Source: Rhodococcus erythropolis NBRC 15567 (GTDB lineage Bacteria; Actinomycetota; Actinomycetes; Mycobacteriales; Mycobacteriaceae). Taken from it: a DNA stretch of 64,000 nt. The position numbers and the translations under genes were made by a program. The DNA is taken from NCBI RefSeq assembly GCF_001552595.1, contig NZ_BCRM01000007.1, forward strand, positions 1 through 64,000, in the 5' to 3' direction. The notes beneath the pieces were generated by a model. That model did no database searches. It was not told the DNA's origin and saw only the letters and a list, made by a program, of their open reading frames with translations. Shown here piece after piece: positions 24,034 to 54,481 of this stretch. The stretch's first letter is position 1; every line of letters starts with the position of its first letter.

Positions 24034-24401
24034 GGGGCTGAACGGTTTCGACTGCGTGTGTTGAGTTAGGGGAAGCGTGTCGGTGCAGGCAAGAGACCAC
24101 CGTAAGCGTCGCTGCAAACCTATAAGCGCCGATTCCAATCAGCGCGACTACGCTCTCGCTGCCTAAGTAGCGAAGCGTGTCTGTCAGCCCGGGGTTGCCC
24201 TCGACCCGGTTCCTGGCATCAGCTAGAGGGCTTTACTGTTCGGCTCGGTCACGGAGTCGAATGGGACATCAAACAGTGACTGGGATCGTCATCCTGGCTT
24301 GTTCGCGAGACTGGGAGATCCAAGTAGAGACTTAGCGAACTGCACACGGAGAAGCCCTAGCGATTCAACGTAGGACCCGGGTTCAATTCCCGGCAGCTCC
24401 A
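24034..24401 (+). ncRNA. ssrA: Transfer-messenger RNA (tmRNA)
   Basis: The 5' end GGGGCTGAACGGTTTCGAC and 3' end with T-arm GGGTTCAATTCCCGGCAGCTCC are the hallmarks of tmRNA. The acceptor arms GGGGCTG and CAGCTCC pair over seven positions, with one G-U. The tag frame runs from the resume codon GCC (24128-24130) to TAA (24164-24166) and encodes ADSNQRDYALAA, ending in the protease-recognised ALAA. CCA is not encoded at the 3' end. Works with SmpB (19435-19908) to rescue stalled ribosomes and mark the unfinished proteins for ClpXP. Exact ends inferred from pairing. Confidence 0.96.
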
Positions 24402-24406
24402 CAACA

Positions 24407-51226: not shown

Positions 51227-51260
51227 TCAGTTGGCACGACCACTTTTGTGGTGATTACTC

Positions 51261-51275
51261 GCCCTCATGGAGGGC
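51261..51275 (+). terminator. Small stem-loop after moaD
   Basis: GCCCTC (51261-51266) and GAGGGC (51270-51275) flank a three-base loop, 35 bases after moaD. No T-run follows. It marks the end of the high-GC moa unit; after it the base composition falls. No gene is seen in 51227-51443. Confidence 0.4.
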
Positions 51276-51443
51276 AGCGTCGAATTGAGGCCGAATAGTG
51301 CGTTCCAGTCTCATTCAGCGTGAGGAATGCGAGGTCGGAAAGCGATTTCGTCGTCTCTGCTGGAGATTCGCTGATCGAAGCCTGTATGCATCACTTGTCC
51401 CTATGACATGATGTGGGAATCGTTGTTTCGAGGAGAGGGTTCG

Positions 51444-52820
51444 ATGGTGAGTTCGTGGAAAGTGACTTGGGAAAACTTCAGAGGATATCAGAATCCCACT
51501 GAATTTGAATTTCCGAAGATTACTCTACTTATTGGTCGAAACAATGTGGGAAAGACATCGGCCTACGCACCTCTATTGCTCTTGAAGCAGACTTTGGATG
51601 CGAAAGATCGTCGAACAAATCTACTGACACGCGGCAGCCTCCTCGATGCGGGGACTTTTAAGGAGATTGTCTACGGTCACGACAGTGATCGATCCCTGCG
51701 GTTCAAAATGGACCTGGGTCTAGGCGATTTGAGGGTACGAGGTCGCGATAGTCGCCCTATTACAGACGCTTCGTTAGATATCTCGTTTGACGCACGAGAG
51801 GATGGTTTGTCTTGTGCGTTGACTAAGACAATTATGTCAGATCGCTCGGGCAATAATATCGTAAAAAGAATCAAGAATACCAAGAAGGATTCATGGAGGG
51901 TCTCCGCCCCAGTGTTACCTCCTCGAAGCTCTGGAGGGCGTCCAATTCGGGAGATTTCAGATTTCTCGAGAGCTTTGAACGAGGAGATGCCTCACGGATT
52001 TCTCTTTTCAGGGCTTGGGGCGATCTATATGCCGAGTAAATGGAGGAAGGACGAGCAACGCTGGGAAGCGGCACGTCCTTGGATGGACGCAGTCTTCGAT
52101 CTGTATGATATACAGAGTTCTTTTAATCACACATTTGAGAATCGATTGCGAAATATTTCCTATCTTGGGCCACTCCGATCCTTGCCGTCTCGTACGTATC
52201 GCATATCGCCGGAGGTTCCATCGGATGTTGGACGAGATGGCCAGTTTGCTCCGGAACTTTTGATGAGATCCGATAATGGAGATGTCAAACGTAGCGTAAA
52301 TCGTTGGCTATCGACTCTGGGGTACGGCGACCTCGATTTCCGTCAGCTTGGTGATGATTTTTTCCAGGTGCTCGTCCGGTCCAGTCGTGATGGTATCGAG
52401 GTCAACCTGTCTCACACAGGCATTGGTTTATCGCAACTTCTCCCAATTTTGGTTCAAGGCAGTTTGACTCGTGACGGGGATACATTTATCGTACAACAGC
52501 CTGAGATTCATCTGAATCCTGCGCAGCAGTGCATTATTACGGATTTTTTAGTAGATCGTGCTGTCGGCGGAACGCGAACTATTGTCGAGACGCATAGCGA
52601 GCACCTGGTGTTGAGGCTACGTAGACGGATTGCGGAAGGCGTTATAAGCGCTCAAGATGTTGCAGTTTATTACTGTGACAATATAAACGATGTATCCACT
52701 GCAGAAAGAATATCGATCGGAGAGCGGGCGGAACTCAATATACAAGATTGGCCATCTGGATTCTTTGAGGAACAGCTTGAAGATTCTTTTGCTTTGGCAC
52801 TCGCGCAGGCCGGCCGATGA
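51444..52820 (+). CDS. OLD/ABC-type AAA ATPase with DUF3696-like C-terminus (candidate defence ATPase)
   Basis: ATPase of 458 residues. Walker A GRNNVGKT (residues 31-38) follows an N-terminal FRGYQNPTEFEFPKITLLIG as in AAA_15/OLD proteins. A helical/beta insert fills the middle. Signature-like LSHTGIGLSQLLPIL, Walker B VQQPEIHLNP (catalytic E354) and switch H384 in VETHSEHLVLR follow. The C-terminal LNIQDWPSGFFEEQ (D435-W436-P437) matches DUF3696. There is no TOPRIM nuclease. ATG at 51444 has a strong ribosome site (GAGGAGAGGG); earlier ATGs at 51408 and 51411 do not. It overlaps a PIN-like gene by four bases. Codon use is AT-rich, unlike the flanking moa and nadE genes, indicating horizontal transfer. 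Probably senses phage or damaged nucleic acid and controls its partner nuclease. Confidence 0.85.
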   Translation: MVSSWKVTWENFRGYQNPTEFEFPKITLLIGRNNVGKTSAYAPLLLLKQTLDAKDRRTNLLTRGSLLDAGTFKEIVYGHDSDRSLRFKMDLGLGDLRVRGRDSRPITDASLDISFDAREDGLSCALTKTIMSDRSGNNIVKRIKNTKKDSWRVSAPVLPPRSSGGRPIREISDFSRALNEEMPHGFLFSGLGAIYMPSKWRKDEQRWEAARPWMDAVFDLYDIQSSFNHTFENRLRNISYLGPLRSLPSRTYRISPEVPSDVGRDGQFAPELLMRSDNGDVKRSVNRWLSTLGYGDLDFRQLGDDFFQVLVRSSRDGIEVNLSHTGIGLSQLLPILVQGSLTRDGDTFIVQQPEIHLNPAQQCIITDFLVDRAVGGTRTIVETHSEHLVLRLRRRIAEGVISAQDVAVYYCDNINDVSTAERISIGERAELNIQDWPSGFFEEQLEDSFALALAQAGR

Positions 52821-53311
52821 AATCTCTGAAGGATTGGTGTTCGACGGGCTTAGTGGTTGATACTTGCGTTCTTGCCCATTCACTTAATGGGCCTAACAAG
52901 TTCAATTCCAGCGCTATCGAACTTATGCAGCACATTCTTGGAGATGCTACGATTTGCCTAATTCTGGACGACACGGGAAAAAGATCGCCGAATGCTGAAA
53001 CTAGCCTCCTTTATTCGGAGTATAAGAGGACATTACCTCCTAATTCGTTTCCACTAGTTGTGCTGACTCGGCTTCTAGGAAGTCAGAGGGTTATATTTGC
53101 GGATCGGCCTAGTGTTTCTGACAGAAAAAAAATAGCGAAATTGATACCTAAGAATAAAAAAGATAGAGCTGTTCTTGGAGCAGCCGTTTCATCTATCGAT
53201 CGCTTTTTGGTGTCGAACGATTTTGATGATTTTAATATAAGTGTTAGATCTAAGGTCGGTAAGGAACTGCATGTCGTAGTGTTGTCGTCAGATCAGGTTT
53301 ATCAAGAATAG
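52817..53311 (+). CDS. PIN-like nuclease domain protein, partner of the ATPase
   Basis: A 164-residue protein with the order of acidic residues of PIN nucleases: D15 at the end of the first strand (GLVVDTCVLAHSLN), a glutamate in the next helices (E35 or E61/E68), D116 in KKDRAVLGAA and D135 with D137/D138 in FLVSNDFDDFN. These would bind metal to cut RNA or single-stranded nucleic acid. Its ATG overlaps the ATPase stop (ATGA), so the two are made together. Composition is strongly AT-rich (53101-53160 has 20 G+C in 60 bases). No antitoxin-sized gene accompanies it, so the ATPase is the likely regulator. Family call is by motif reading only. Confidence 0.7.
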   Translation: MKSLKDWCSTGLVVDTCVLAHSLNGPNKFNSSAIELMQHILGDATICLILDDTGKRSPNAETSLLYSEYKRTLPPNSFPLVVLTRLLGSQRVIFADRPSVSDRKKIAKLIPKNKKDRAVLGAAVSSIDRFLVSNDFDDFNISVRSKVGKELHVVVLSSDQVYQE

Positions 53312-53656
53312 AGAATTCACTCTCGGCAAGGGTTTGGAGGGTTGGGGATTTGGGTTGGTTCGAATATGGTGTCGCTTCGGCAATTGGTCTTTCTGAATCG
53401 TTTCGGCTGAATTTCATGATTCGCGATATATATCTTTGCAATTTCTTTGCTGTGCAATCGTTAGCGTGAGATGCACTTGAGAACAGGCAGTCGAGCGAGT
53501 TAATTTTCTTGCGTAAATGGAAGGGCTTGGTAGCTATAGATGGTAAGGTGAGGCGGTCTTTGGGAGTTTGATCGCATTACTTCGTTAGATGTGAAAGGCG
53601 ATTTGCGGCTCGGGTACGGGCGCGCGCGTCAATATCTTCACGGTTGAAGGACAGTC
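53312..53656. other. AT-rich gene-free stretch at the right edge of the insertion
   Basis: 345 bp with no convincing reading frame. The first two thirds share the low GC of the PIN gene, and composition returns to the host level near 53590. No transposase remnant, tRNA or clear flanking direct repeat was recognised. It may contain the right boundary of the acquired segment and the terminator of the ATPase-PIN operon. Confidence 0.6.
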
Positions 53657-54481
53657 TTATCGCCACCAGGTATCCAGGGGGGTTACCGGCACCGTGCGCT
53701 TGTGACGAGTGTTGGCGAACATCTTCTCGAGCTTTTCGGCTACCTCGGAGGAAACGTCCTTTCCTTCGAGGTAGTCGTCTATCTGTGAGTACGTGACGCC
53801 GAGGGCAACTTCGTCGGGCAGCGCGGGTCGGTCGTCCTCGAGGTCGGCGGTCGGCACCTTGCGCCACGTGCTCTCGGGTGCGCCCAATTCCTGCAGTAGC
53901 GCAGCGCCCTGCCGTTTGCTCAGGCCGGTGAGCGGCGTGATGTCGACGCCGCCGTCACCGAATTTCGTGAAGAAGCCGGTAATCGCTTCTGCGGCGTGGT
54001 CGGTACCGATCACGAGGTAGCCGAGCTGACCGGCAATCGCATACTGAATGACCATTCGTTCGCGCGCCTTGATGTTGCCACGGACGAAGTCGCGTAGTTC
54101 GCCGTTCCCCAACGCCTCAGAGGCCTCACGGGCTGTGGCGTCGGCGCCAGGCTTGACGTTGACCGTGAGAGAGCGGTCCGGCTTGATGAAGCCGAGTGCG
54201 ATCTGAGCATCGGATTCGTCGGCCTGCGCGCCATAGGGGAGTCGAACTGCGACGAACTCGGCCTCGTGGCCTTCTTCACGAAGTTCAGTGACCGCGCGTT
54301 GGGCGAGGGCTCCGGCGAGCGTGCTGTCCTGACCGCCGCTGATTCCCAGAACGAACCCTTTGGCGGGGGTCGAGCGCACGTAGTCCTTCAGGAACTGGAC
54401 TCGCGCGCGAACCTCCGCTGCGGCGTCGATTGTCGGCTTTGTGCCGAGTTCTTCGATGATGCTTTCACGCAGTGTGGCCAT
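53657..54481 (-). CDS. nadE: Ammonia-dependent NAD+ synthetase
   Basis: Last step of NAD synthesis, from deamido-NAD with ammonia. 274 residues, a single NAD_synthase domain without the N-terminal glutaminase. PP-loop [12 protein letters not shown] (about residue 45), [42 protein letters not shown] (in parts [18 protein letters not shown]) and the C-terminal [14 protein letters not shown]. Length and sequence match the Escherichia-type NadE. Many actinobacteria instead carry a glutaminase-fused form, so a second enzyme may exist elsewhere. The high-GC composition contrasts with the insertion next to it. Confidence 0.93.

Follow-up and report, generated by a model that had tools for sequence, protein, structure and literature searches.

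What might a pair of overlapping genes, lodged by itself in an AT-rich insert, be doing in the genome of Rhodococcus erythropolis NBRC 15567 (6.6 Mb in 67 contigs)? The pair encodes an ABC-type ATPase and a small PIN-fold protein and lies in what we term the window, i.e., the whole stretch of 64,000 nucleotides analysed (positions 1 to 64,000 of contig NZ_BCRM01000007.1), the numbering of which is used throughout. We consider it somewhat probable that the two genes form an antiviral module in which the ATPase restrains the PIN nuclease until phage sensing frees it to cut RNA, probably tRNA. A sequence-only reading of the locus had proposed much the same arrangement, as a combination not yet described; that last claim falls, as related pairs are already present in PADLOC-DB as the candidate HEC-03 (HEC-03A, a PIN-type protein; HEC-03B, an ATPase). 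Pairs of this kind thus already have a name, and the one in the window falls in a new and divergent sister clade beside this catalogued candidate. The two open reading frames (ORFs) overlap, as that reading had it, by the 4 bp of ATGA:

51444..52820, + strand: ABC-type ATPase of 458 amino acids (aa), AAA_15/DUF3696 family, HEC-03B-related (Pfam, PADLOC, AF2 model)
52817..53311, + strand: PIN-fold protein of 164 aa, predicted RNase effector (AF2 model, structural matches)

The PIN-fold protein and its ATPase

The second protein yielded no Pfam or NCBIfam match up to E 1, and its sole PADLOC match was a weak one to PtuA (E 0.011). Its AF2 model, with a mean pLDDT of 91.9, has PIN domains as its structural matches, the closest of which include many VapC toxins and also HARP, PRORP, Nob1 and SMG6; all of these are RNases, the PIN toxins of VapBC cutting tRNA or rRNA. 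The three aspartates singled out beforehand (D15, D116 and D135) proved to be conserved, and two acidic positions that had been passed over, D51 and E68, join them:

52859..52861, + strand: D15, PIN acidic position (Asp in 73/74, Glu in 1)
52967..52969, + strand: D51, conserved acidic position (74/74)
53018..53020, + strand: E68, PIN acidic position (Glu in 72/74, Gln in 2)
53162..53164, + strand: D116, PIN acidic position (Asp in 73/74, Glu in 1)
53219..53221, + strand: D135, PIN acidic position (Asp in 73/74, gap in 1)

On its modelled fold and conserved acidic metal-binding residues, the protein is assigned to the PIN-like superfamily as a putative metal-dependent nuclease.

The first protein matches AAA_15 (E 5e-16) and AAA_21 in Pfam, and its AF2 model (pLDDT 91.0) finds SMC/Rad50/PtuA heads as structural matches. 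Among PADLOC models, it scores 207 bits with PDC-M55A, 179 with HEC-03B (E 4e-53), 179 with NsnB and 68 with AriA. Its proposed likeness to DUF3696 is borne out by a match just short of the family cut-off, and the reported lack of a TOPRIM domain by the absence of any such match up to E 1 in the 458-aa protein. The motifs had been called intact throughout, which is correct for Walker A and the H-loop but not for Walker B:

51534..51557, + strand: Walker A GRNNVGKT, residues 31-38 (G31, N33, G36 and K37 invariant in 42 aligned; K37 in 71/71)
52416..52436, + strand: ABC signature-like TGIGLSQ, residues 325-331 (G326, G328, S330 and Q331 in 71/71)
52485..52505, + strand: Walker B region FIVQQPE, residues 348-354 (351, the Walker B acid position, and 352, the catalytic Glu position, are both Gln)
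52587..52604, + strand: H-loop ETHSEH, residues 382-387 (E382 and H384 in 71/71)
52644..52784, + strand: DUF3696-like C-terminal part, residues 401-447 (PF12476, 21.5 bits, just below the 22-bit cut-off)

Both acidic positions of the window's Walker B (V350-Q351-Q352-P353-E354) are thus occupied by Gln. In alignments, Q352 falls opposite the LILDEP Glu of Rad50 and the second IIEEP Glu of TsOLD, and the corresponding position is Gln in 70 of the 71 compared ATPases and His in the other. Glu occupies the catalytic position (LEEPE) in one subclade of HEC-03-type ATPases, that of loci L175-L178, against which the majority with Gln can naturally be compared.

Distribution of the pair, its sister clade and its insertion site

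A genome-contig scan returned 422 relatives, the best 80 of which were analysed as a first set, one biased towards the window. Conservation of the gene pair across genomes, which had been suggested as a check, is evident here: a whole PIN gene lies directly downstream of the ATPase gene, on the same strand, at 73 of the 80 loci. The other seven comprise L043, with its PIN in pieces; L058, L076 and L078, the contigs of which end within 23, 225 and 27 bases; and L045, L064 (one lineage) and L074, from which PIN is truly missing. By eye, the cyanobacterial loci L045 and L064 carry a Doc/Fic-like ORF on the opposite strand, possibly a case of partner loss.

Partners fall into two types, i.e., type A, the window clade (24 loci besides the window), and type B, the HEC-03 type (49 whole loci). 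The HEC-03A model matches 5/5 scanned type B partners at 9e-30 to 1e-37 and leaves unmatched both the window PIN protein (up to E 1) and 4/4 further type A partners (up to E 0.1); PIN profiles built for the two types find each other weakly, with a best E of about 1e-5. In three ATPase trees (quick trees with SH-aLRT support and no bootstrap), type A forms one branch (SH-aLRT 95, 97 and 100); in the first of them, the partner type changes once. ATPase and PIN protein have diverged together, with a Mantel r of 0.866 in the window clade (23 pairs) and 0.729 in the HEC-03 type (48 pairs); none of 2000 permutations reached the observed r, to which the shared ancestry of host lineages contributes. 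A natural ATPase-PIN fusion, P0087 (624 aa), was left unused; by eye, its ATPase part is out of frame before PIN and looks like a frameshift.

Two less biased draws were made with the HEC-03B profile (E 1e-25), from 396 Actinomycetota and 398 Pseudomonadota genomes. Seven matches came from the former, with PIN detected by profiles beside two (the window and L115) and not beside five. Twenty came from the latter, 15 with PIN (E 4e-36 or better) and five without (E 3e-28 to 8e-26); L149, one of these 15 PIN loci, comes from the genome of type A locus L009, the centre of this draw. On viral contigs, PIN accompanies the ATPase at 5/15 loci. The PIN alignment itself found no relative on viral contigs, and only the window's own protein among the 396 Actinomycetota genomes. 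At L120:902-1432 (- strand), one of the five Actinomycetota loci lacking a profile match, a 177-aa neighbour of the ATPase appears PIN-like by eye (LVIDACVA start) and was missed by both PIN profiles. ATPase-PIN pairs recur side by side across many bacterial phyla, and related pairs occur on plasmids and viral contigs.

Within the two clades PIN is almost always present, and beyond them other genes take its place. At L074, L083, L117, L118, L121, L142, L152, L156-L163, L179, L180, L182 and L183, distant ATPases are followed by longer ORFs (about 284-371 aa) without a PIN-profile match; six of these ORFs and the L120 partner were scanned and gave no PADLOC match. Such ORFs may represent alternative effectors paired with this kind of ATPase.

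In the sister clade, a third gene recurs. An RNA ligase family protein is annotated directly after PIN on two DUF3696 plasmid loci that were examined, and Pfam RNA_ligase matches the four proteins scanned at 2e-21 to 3e-34. In the first set, where some contigs end early, the ligase lies directly 3' of PIN at 10/49 whole type B loci; the figure is 10/15 for PIN loci of the Pseudomonadota draw (10/14 without its type A centre) and 3/4 for viral-contig loci with a type B PIN:

Loci with an RNA ligase after PIN: L024, L027, L030, L034, L036, L041, L053, L062, L068, L071, L143, L144, L151, L153, L155, L167, L169-L177

The ligase K-x-D-G motif is intact in 12/12 compared, L034 (EKLDGGN) falling outside the longer pattern. 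Presence of the ligase requires four changes on the ATPase tree and is spread over three separate parts of it; parsimony cannot separate gain from loss.

In the window, the pair occupies an insert of its own:

51229..53661, no strand: AT-rich insert holding only the gene pair, from a MoaD-like ORF to nadE (borders approximate; GC 0.472)
51430..51435, + strand: GAGGAG, ribosome-binding-site-like, 8 nt 5' of the ATG at 51444 (motif judged by eye)

The AT-richness noted at the outset was confirmed, at a GC of 0.466 for the pair vs 0.618 for the window, with 0.4% of same-length windows equally AT-rich (those overlapping the pair counted). Third-position GC is 0.46 in the ATPase gene and 0.38 in the PIN gene, and 0.63 in neighbouring moaA; an alternative ATPase start exists at the in-frame ATG at 51408. 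Upstream neighbours of the insert encode MoeA and MoaA (Pfam), and the 3' neighbour is nadE (NAD synthase); the MoaD-like ORF ends in PPFAGG by eye, and its scanned 82-aa stretch had no Pfam match at 1e-5. Homology to the close congeners L087 and L088 stops at 51228 and restarts at 53663 (L087) or 53662 (L088). The MoaD-nadE interval, measured in 23 of 27 congeners (loci L085-L111), is 182 bp in G022 (L088) and 220 bp in L107, counting the end of the MoaD-like gene, and 681-1229 bp in the remaining 21, mostly with other ORFs. As the insert was found in 0/27 other congeners searched and interval lengths differ, the pair is a lone cargo in a site variable across the genus. The insert holds no direct repeats of at least 14 nt, and a promoter and terminator scan gave no more than in shuffles.

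Across 28 congeneric genomes, the ATPase occurs in that of the window, with a distant relative in G008 only (C4 4207-4893; 33% identity over 218 residues; partner of 288 aa); a match with the same coordinates lies on Rhodococcus opacus B4 plasmid NC_012521. Elsewhere in the window, 24034-24402 (+ strand) is a tmRNA gene with the tag ADSNQRDYALAA.

Proposed mechanism and its alternatives

The anatomy of the pair, an ATPase plus a PIN protein, fits a guard and its effector. The ATP-occupied ATPase would bind the PIN RNase and keep it inactive, working as a clamp or switch and not as a cycling motor; a clamp is preferred because a Glu-to-Gln exchange at the catalytic position slows hydrolysis in other ABC ATPases. 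The clamp would open on a trigger or once ATP is lost, and the PIN protein thus freed or activated would cut RNA, probably tRNA, for which the likely outcome, by analogy with PARIS and Septu, would be translational arrest of the infected cell. Our proposal of RNA as the substrate rests on the RNA ligase gene that follows the pair in many relatives and whose product would rejoin the cut ends. A fuller version of this proposal, which we offer tentatively as a possible one, is that the pair represents a free-standing branch of a broadly distributed immune family, in which an ATPase lacking the catalytic Glu (and, in Actinobacteria, also the Walker B acid) serves as an ATP-occupied clamp on an RNA-cutting PIN, and to which sister lineages repeatedly added a cut-reversing RNA ligase, making the arrest reversible.

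Counting in favour of the proposal are the adjacency and joint divergence of the two genes, the modelled folds, the defence genes around the HEC-03 type, the ATPase-gated tRNA cutting documented for PARIS and Septu, and a mobile character, seen in an insert missing from 27 other congeners and in relatives on plasmids and viral contigs. Several observations weigh against the guarded-RNase proposal. The Walker B Gln is not universal: Glu stands in its place in 4/15 Pseudomonadota PIN loci and in 1/42 nearest homologues, and Arg in L045. Farther out in the family, the ATPases have different partner proteins. The ligase is present in 0/24 type A loci of the first set, and the window genome has no RNA_ligase match, so that the argument for RNA rests on relatives. 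Finally, the window clade shows no clear excess of defence genes over a control, as follows from a neighbour scan that covered up to two ORFs of at least 200 aa per side (trimmed to 450 aa; PADLOC E 1e-20). The 25 of 46 families listed for type A neighbours (88 proteins, 24 loci) are all type I restriction models, each represented by a single protein. The control, used only as a contrast (84 of 116 prepared proteins at fixed positions in one phylum, Actinomycetota; counts are of families, not proteins), matched five models with one protein each, i.e., BrxH, DpdF three times and SngC; helicase-type matches are hence present there too.

Type B, for its part, often stands among defence genes (Hma, DISARM, type IIG). 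Among the 25 of 56 families listed for its neighbours (81 proteins from 26 loci, out of 105 prepared from the locus sample, RNA ligases being mostly left out), HmaB was matched in four, HmaA, HmaC, DrmA, DrmD, DrmMI, BrxH and DpdE in two each, and type IIG and one PDC model in one each. The co-location with defence islands, likewise suggested as a check, thus holds for the HEC-03 type but not clearly for the window clade; for that reason, the case for a role in defence depends on the sister clade. One neighbour of an HEC-03-type pair, L033:9915-11264 (+ strand), carries a Swt1-like HEPN domain and DUF499.

The lack of a clear defence-island context in the window clade is also what lends some room to a toxin-antitoxin-like or stress module, wherein the ATPase would read cellular ATP or DNA damage and the PIN protein would slow translation with no special link to phage. 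Many VapC toxins are among the closest structural matches of the PIN protein, VapBC PIN toxins cut tRNA in the account given by PMC13092281, and the RNA ligase of the relatives would suit a reversible pause. We nevertheless judge such a module unlikely, given that the sister clade lies among Hma and DISARM genes, that related pairs travel on plasmids and viral contigs, and that presence is sporadic (1/28 congeneric genomes).

The SMC/Rad50-like ATPase could instead load the PIN protein on DNA, to cut that of an invading phage or plasmid. This we hold to be decidedly improbable, since the better-ranked PIN matches (VapC, HARP, PRORP, Nob1 and SMG6) are RNases and RNA ligases recur beside the PIN gene in relatives. 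HARP and PRORP among those matches could also bring to mind a domesticated RNA-processing unit, e.g., one that would mature tRNA in the manner of HARP, a PIN-type RNase P; sporadic presence, an AT-rich insert, and related pairs on plasmids and viral contigs leave this reading very little likelihood. That the pair is a divergent member of a described multi-gene system (Menshen or PDC-M55) with its other parts lost or hidden is hardly credible: NsnB (179 bits) and PDC-M55A (207 bits) do score at least as high as HEC-03B (179 bits) on the ATPase, but the PDC-M55B model is unmatched in the window genome, the insert holds two genes only, and the ATPase sits in a clade where every row carries PIN.

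Returning to the guarded RNase, our analysis gives the catalogued candidate HEC-03 a specific mechanism that can be tested, in which a PIN RNase would be guarded by a Glu-to-Gln ABC ATPase, with ligase repair in many relatives. Should this hold, certain antiviral systems of bacteria would come with a built-in means of reversing their own damage, and immunity would include an ABC ATPase that works mainly through being occupied by ATP.

Comparison with known systems

The adopted model of an ATPase guarding an RNA-cutting effector is that of PARIS, likewise an ABC-type ATPase beside a small nuclease, in which AriA sequesters AriB and AriB cuts tRNA after a phage trigger, as PMC12409363 describes. 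Membership was rejected, as AriB is a Toprim nuclease while the partner in the window is modelled as PIN, and the AriA model reaches only 68 bits. For Septu and retron Eco7 (PtuA/PtuB), PtuB is HNH-type, and the PIN model of the window partner excludes the pair from these as well. Septu is stated by PMC13096335 to cut tRNA-Tyr. Gabija/OLD membership was set aside in that the ATPase shows no TOPRIM match and the insert holds no third gene (helicase).

Menshen (NsnABC) and PDC-M55 share their ATPase family with the window (NsnB and PDC-M55A, respectively), and Menshen, according to PMC10952713, additionally has DUF262 and a nuclease predicted to be of OLD type. The pair is not a Menshen system: the insert contains the ATPase and PIN genes only, and the next genes are MoaD-like/MoaA/MoeA and NAD synthase. 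Nor is it PDC-M55, the PDC-M55B model (PDLC04708, 315 positions) being unmatched in the window genome at E 1e-5. VapBC offers a PIN effector like that of the pair; VapB, however, is a small DNA-binding antitoxin and the partner here is a 458-aa ABC ATPase, for which VapBC membership was rejected. PIN effectors also feature in two DefensePredictor systems reported in PMC13092281, i.e., DS-3, a single protein, and DS-5, PIN plus a DUF5830/AcrIF4-like protein, whereas the window PIN is partnered by an ABC ATPase.

The closest comparison is with HEC-03 itself. In the literature, HEC-03 is named once, as a detected subtype (PMC13356809); several HECs, including HEC-06, are active, and HEC-03 is not named among them in the accessible part of PMC12988326. 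Our search of the literature found no phage test of HEC-03 and no account of the paired ATPase and PIN genes, of the accompanying RNA ligase or of the Walker B of the ATPase, some of which the preprint by Payne et al. (apparently the one defining these candidates) or the ABC-ATPase survey gkaa726 may cover. Two features came up nowhere in the literature searched, the Gln at the place of the catalytic Glu and the recurrent RNA ligase in the sister clade. The HEC-04 model gave weak matches in three genomes; the accession after HEC-03B is HEC-04, so there is no HEC-03C next in number.

HEC-03 shares with the window pair its gene order, ATPase family and PIN acidic positions, and its genes are likewise adjacent or overlapping on the same strand. 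The window ATPase nonetheless scores 179 bits with the HEC-03B model, vs 434-557 in four clear members, and scores higher with PDC-M55A. Whereas HEC-03 is a "Hma-embedded candidate", the window pair is not in Hma, standing as a lone insert between the MoaD-like ORF and nadE; it falls in a separate clade without the RNA ligase, with a PIN protein that HEC-03A does not match. The comparison thus exposes a clade, kindred in layout and ATPase to HEC-03, that goes undetected by the PADLOC-DB 2.0.0 model for HEC-03A.
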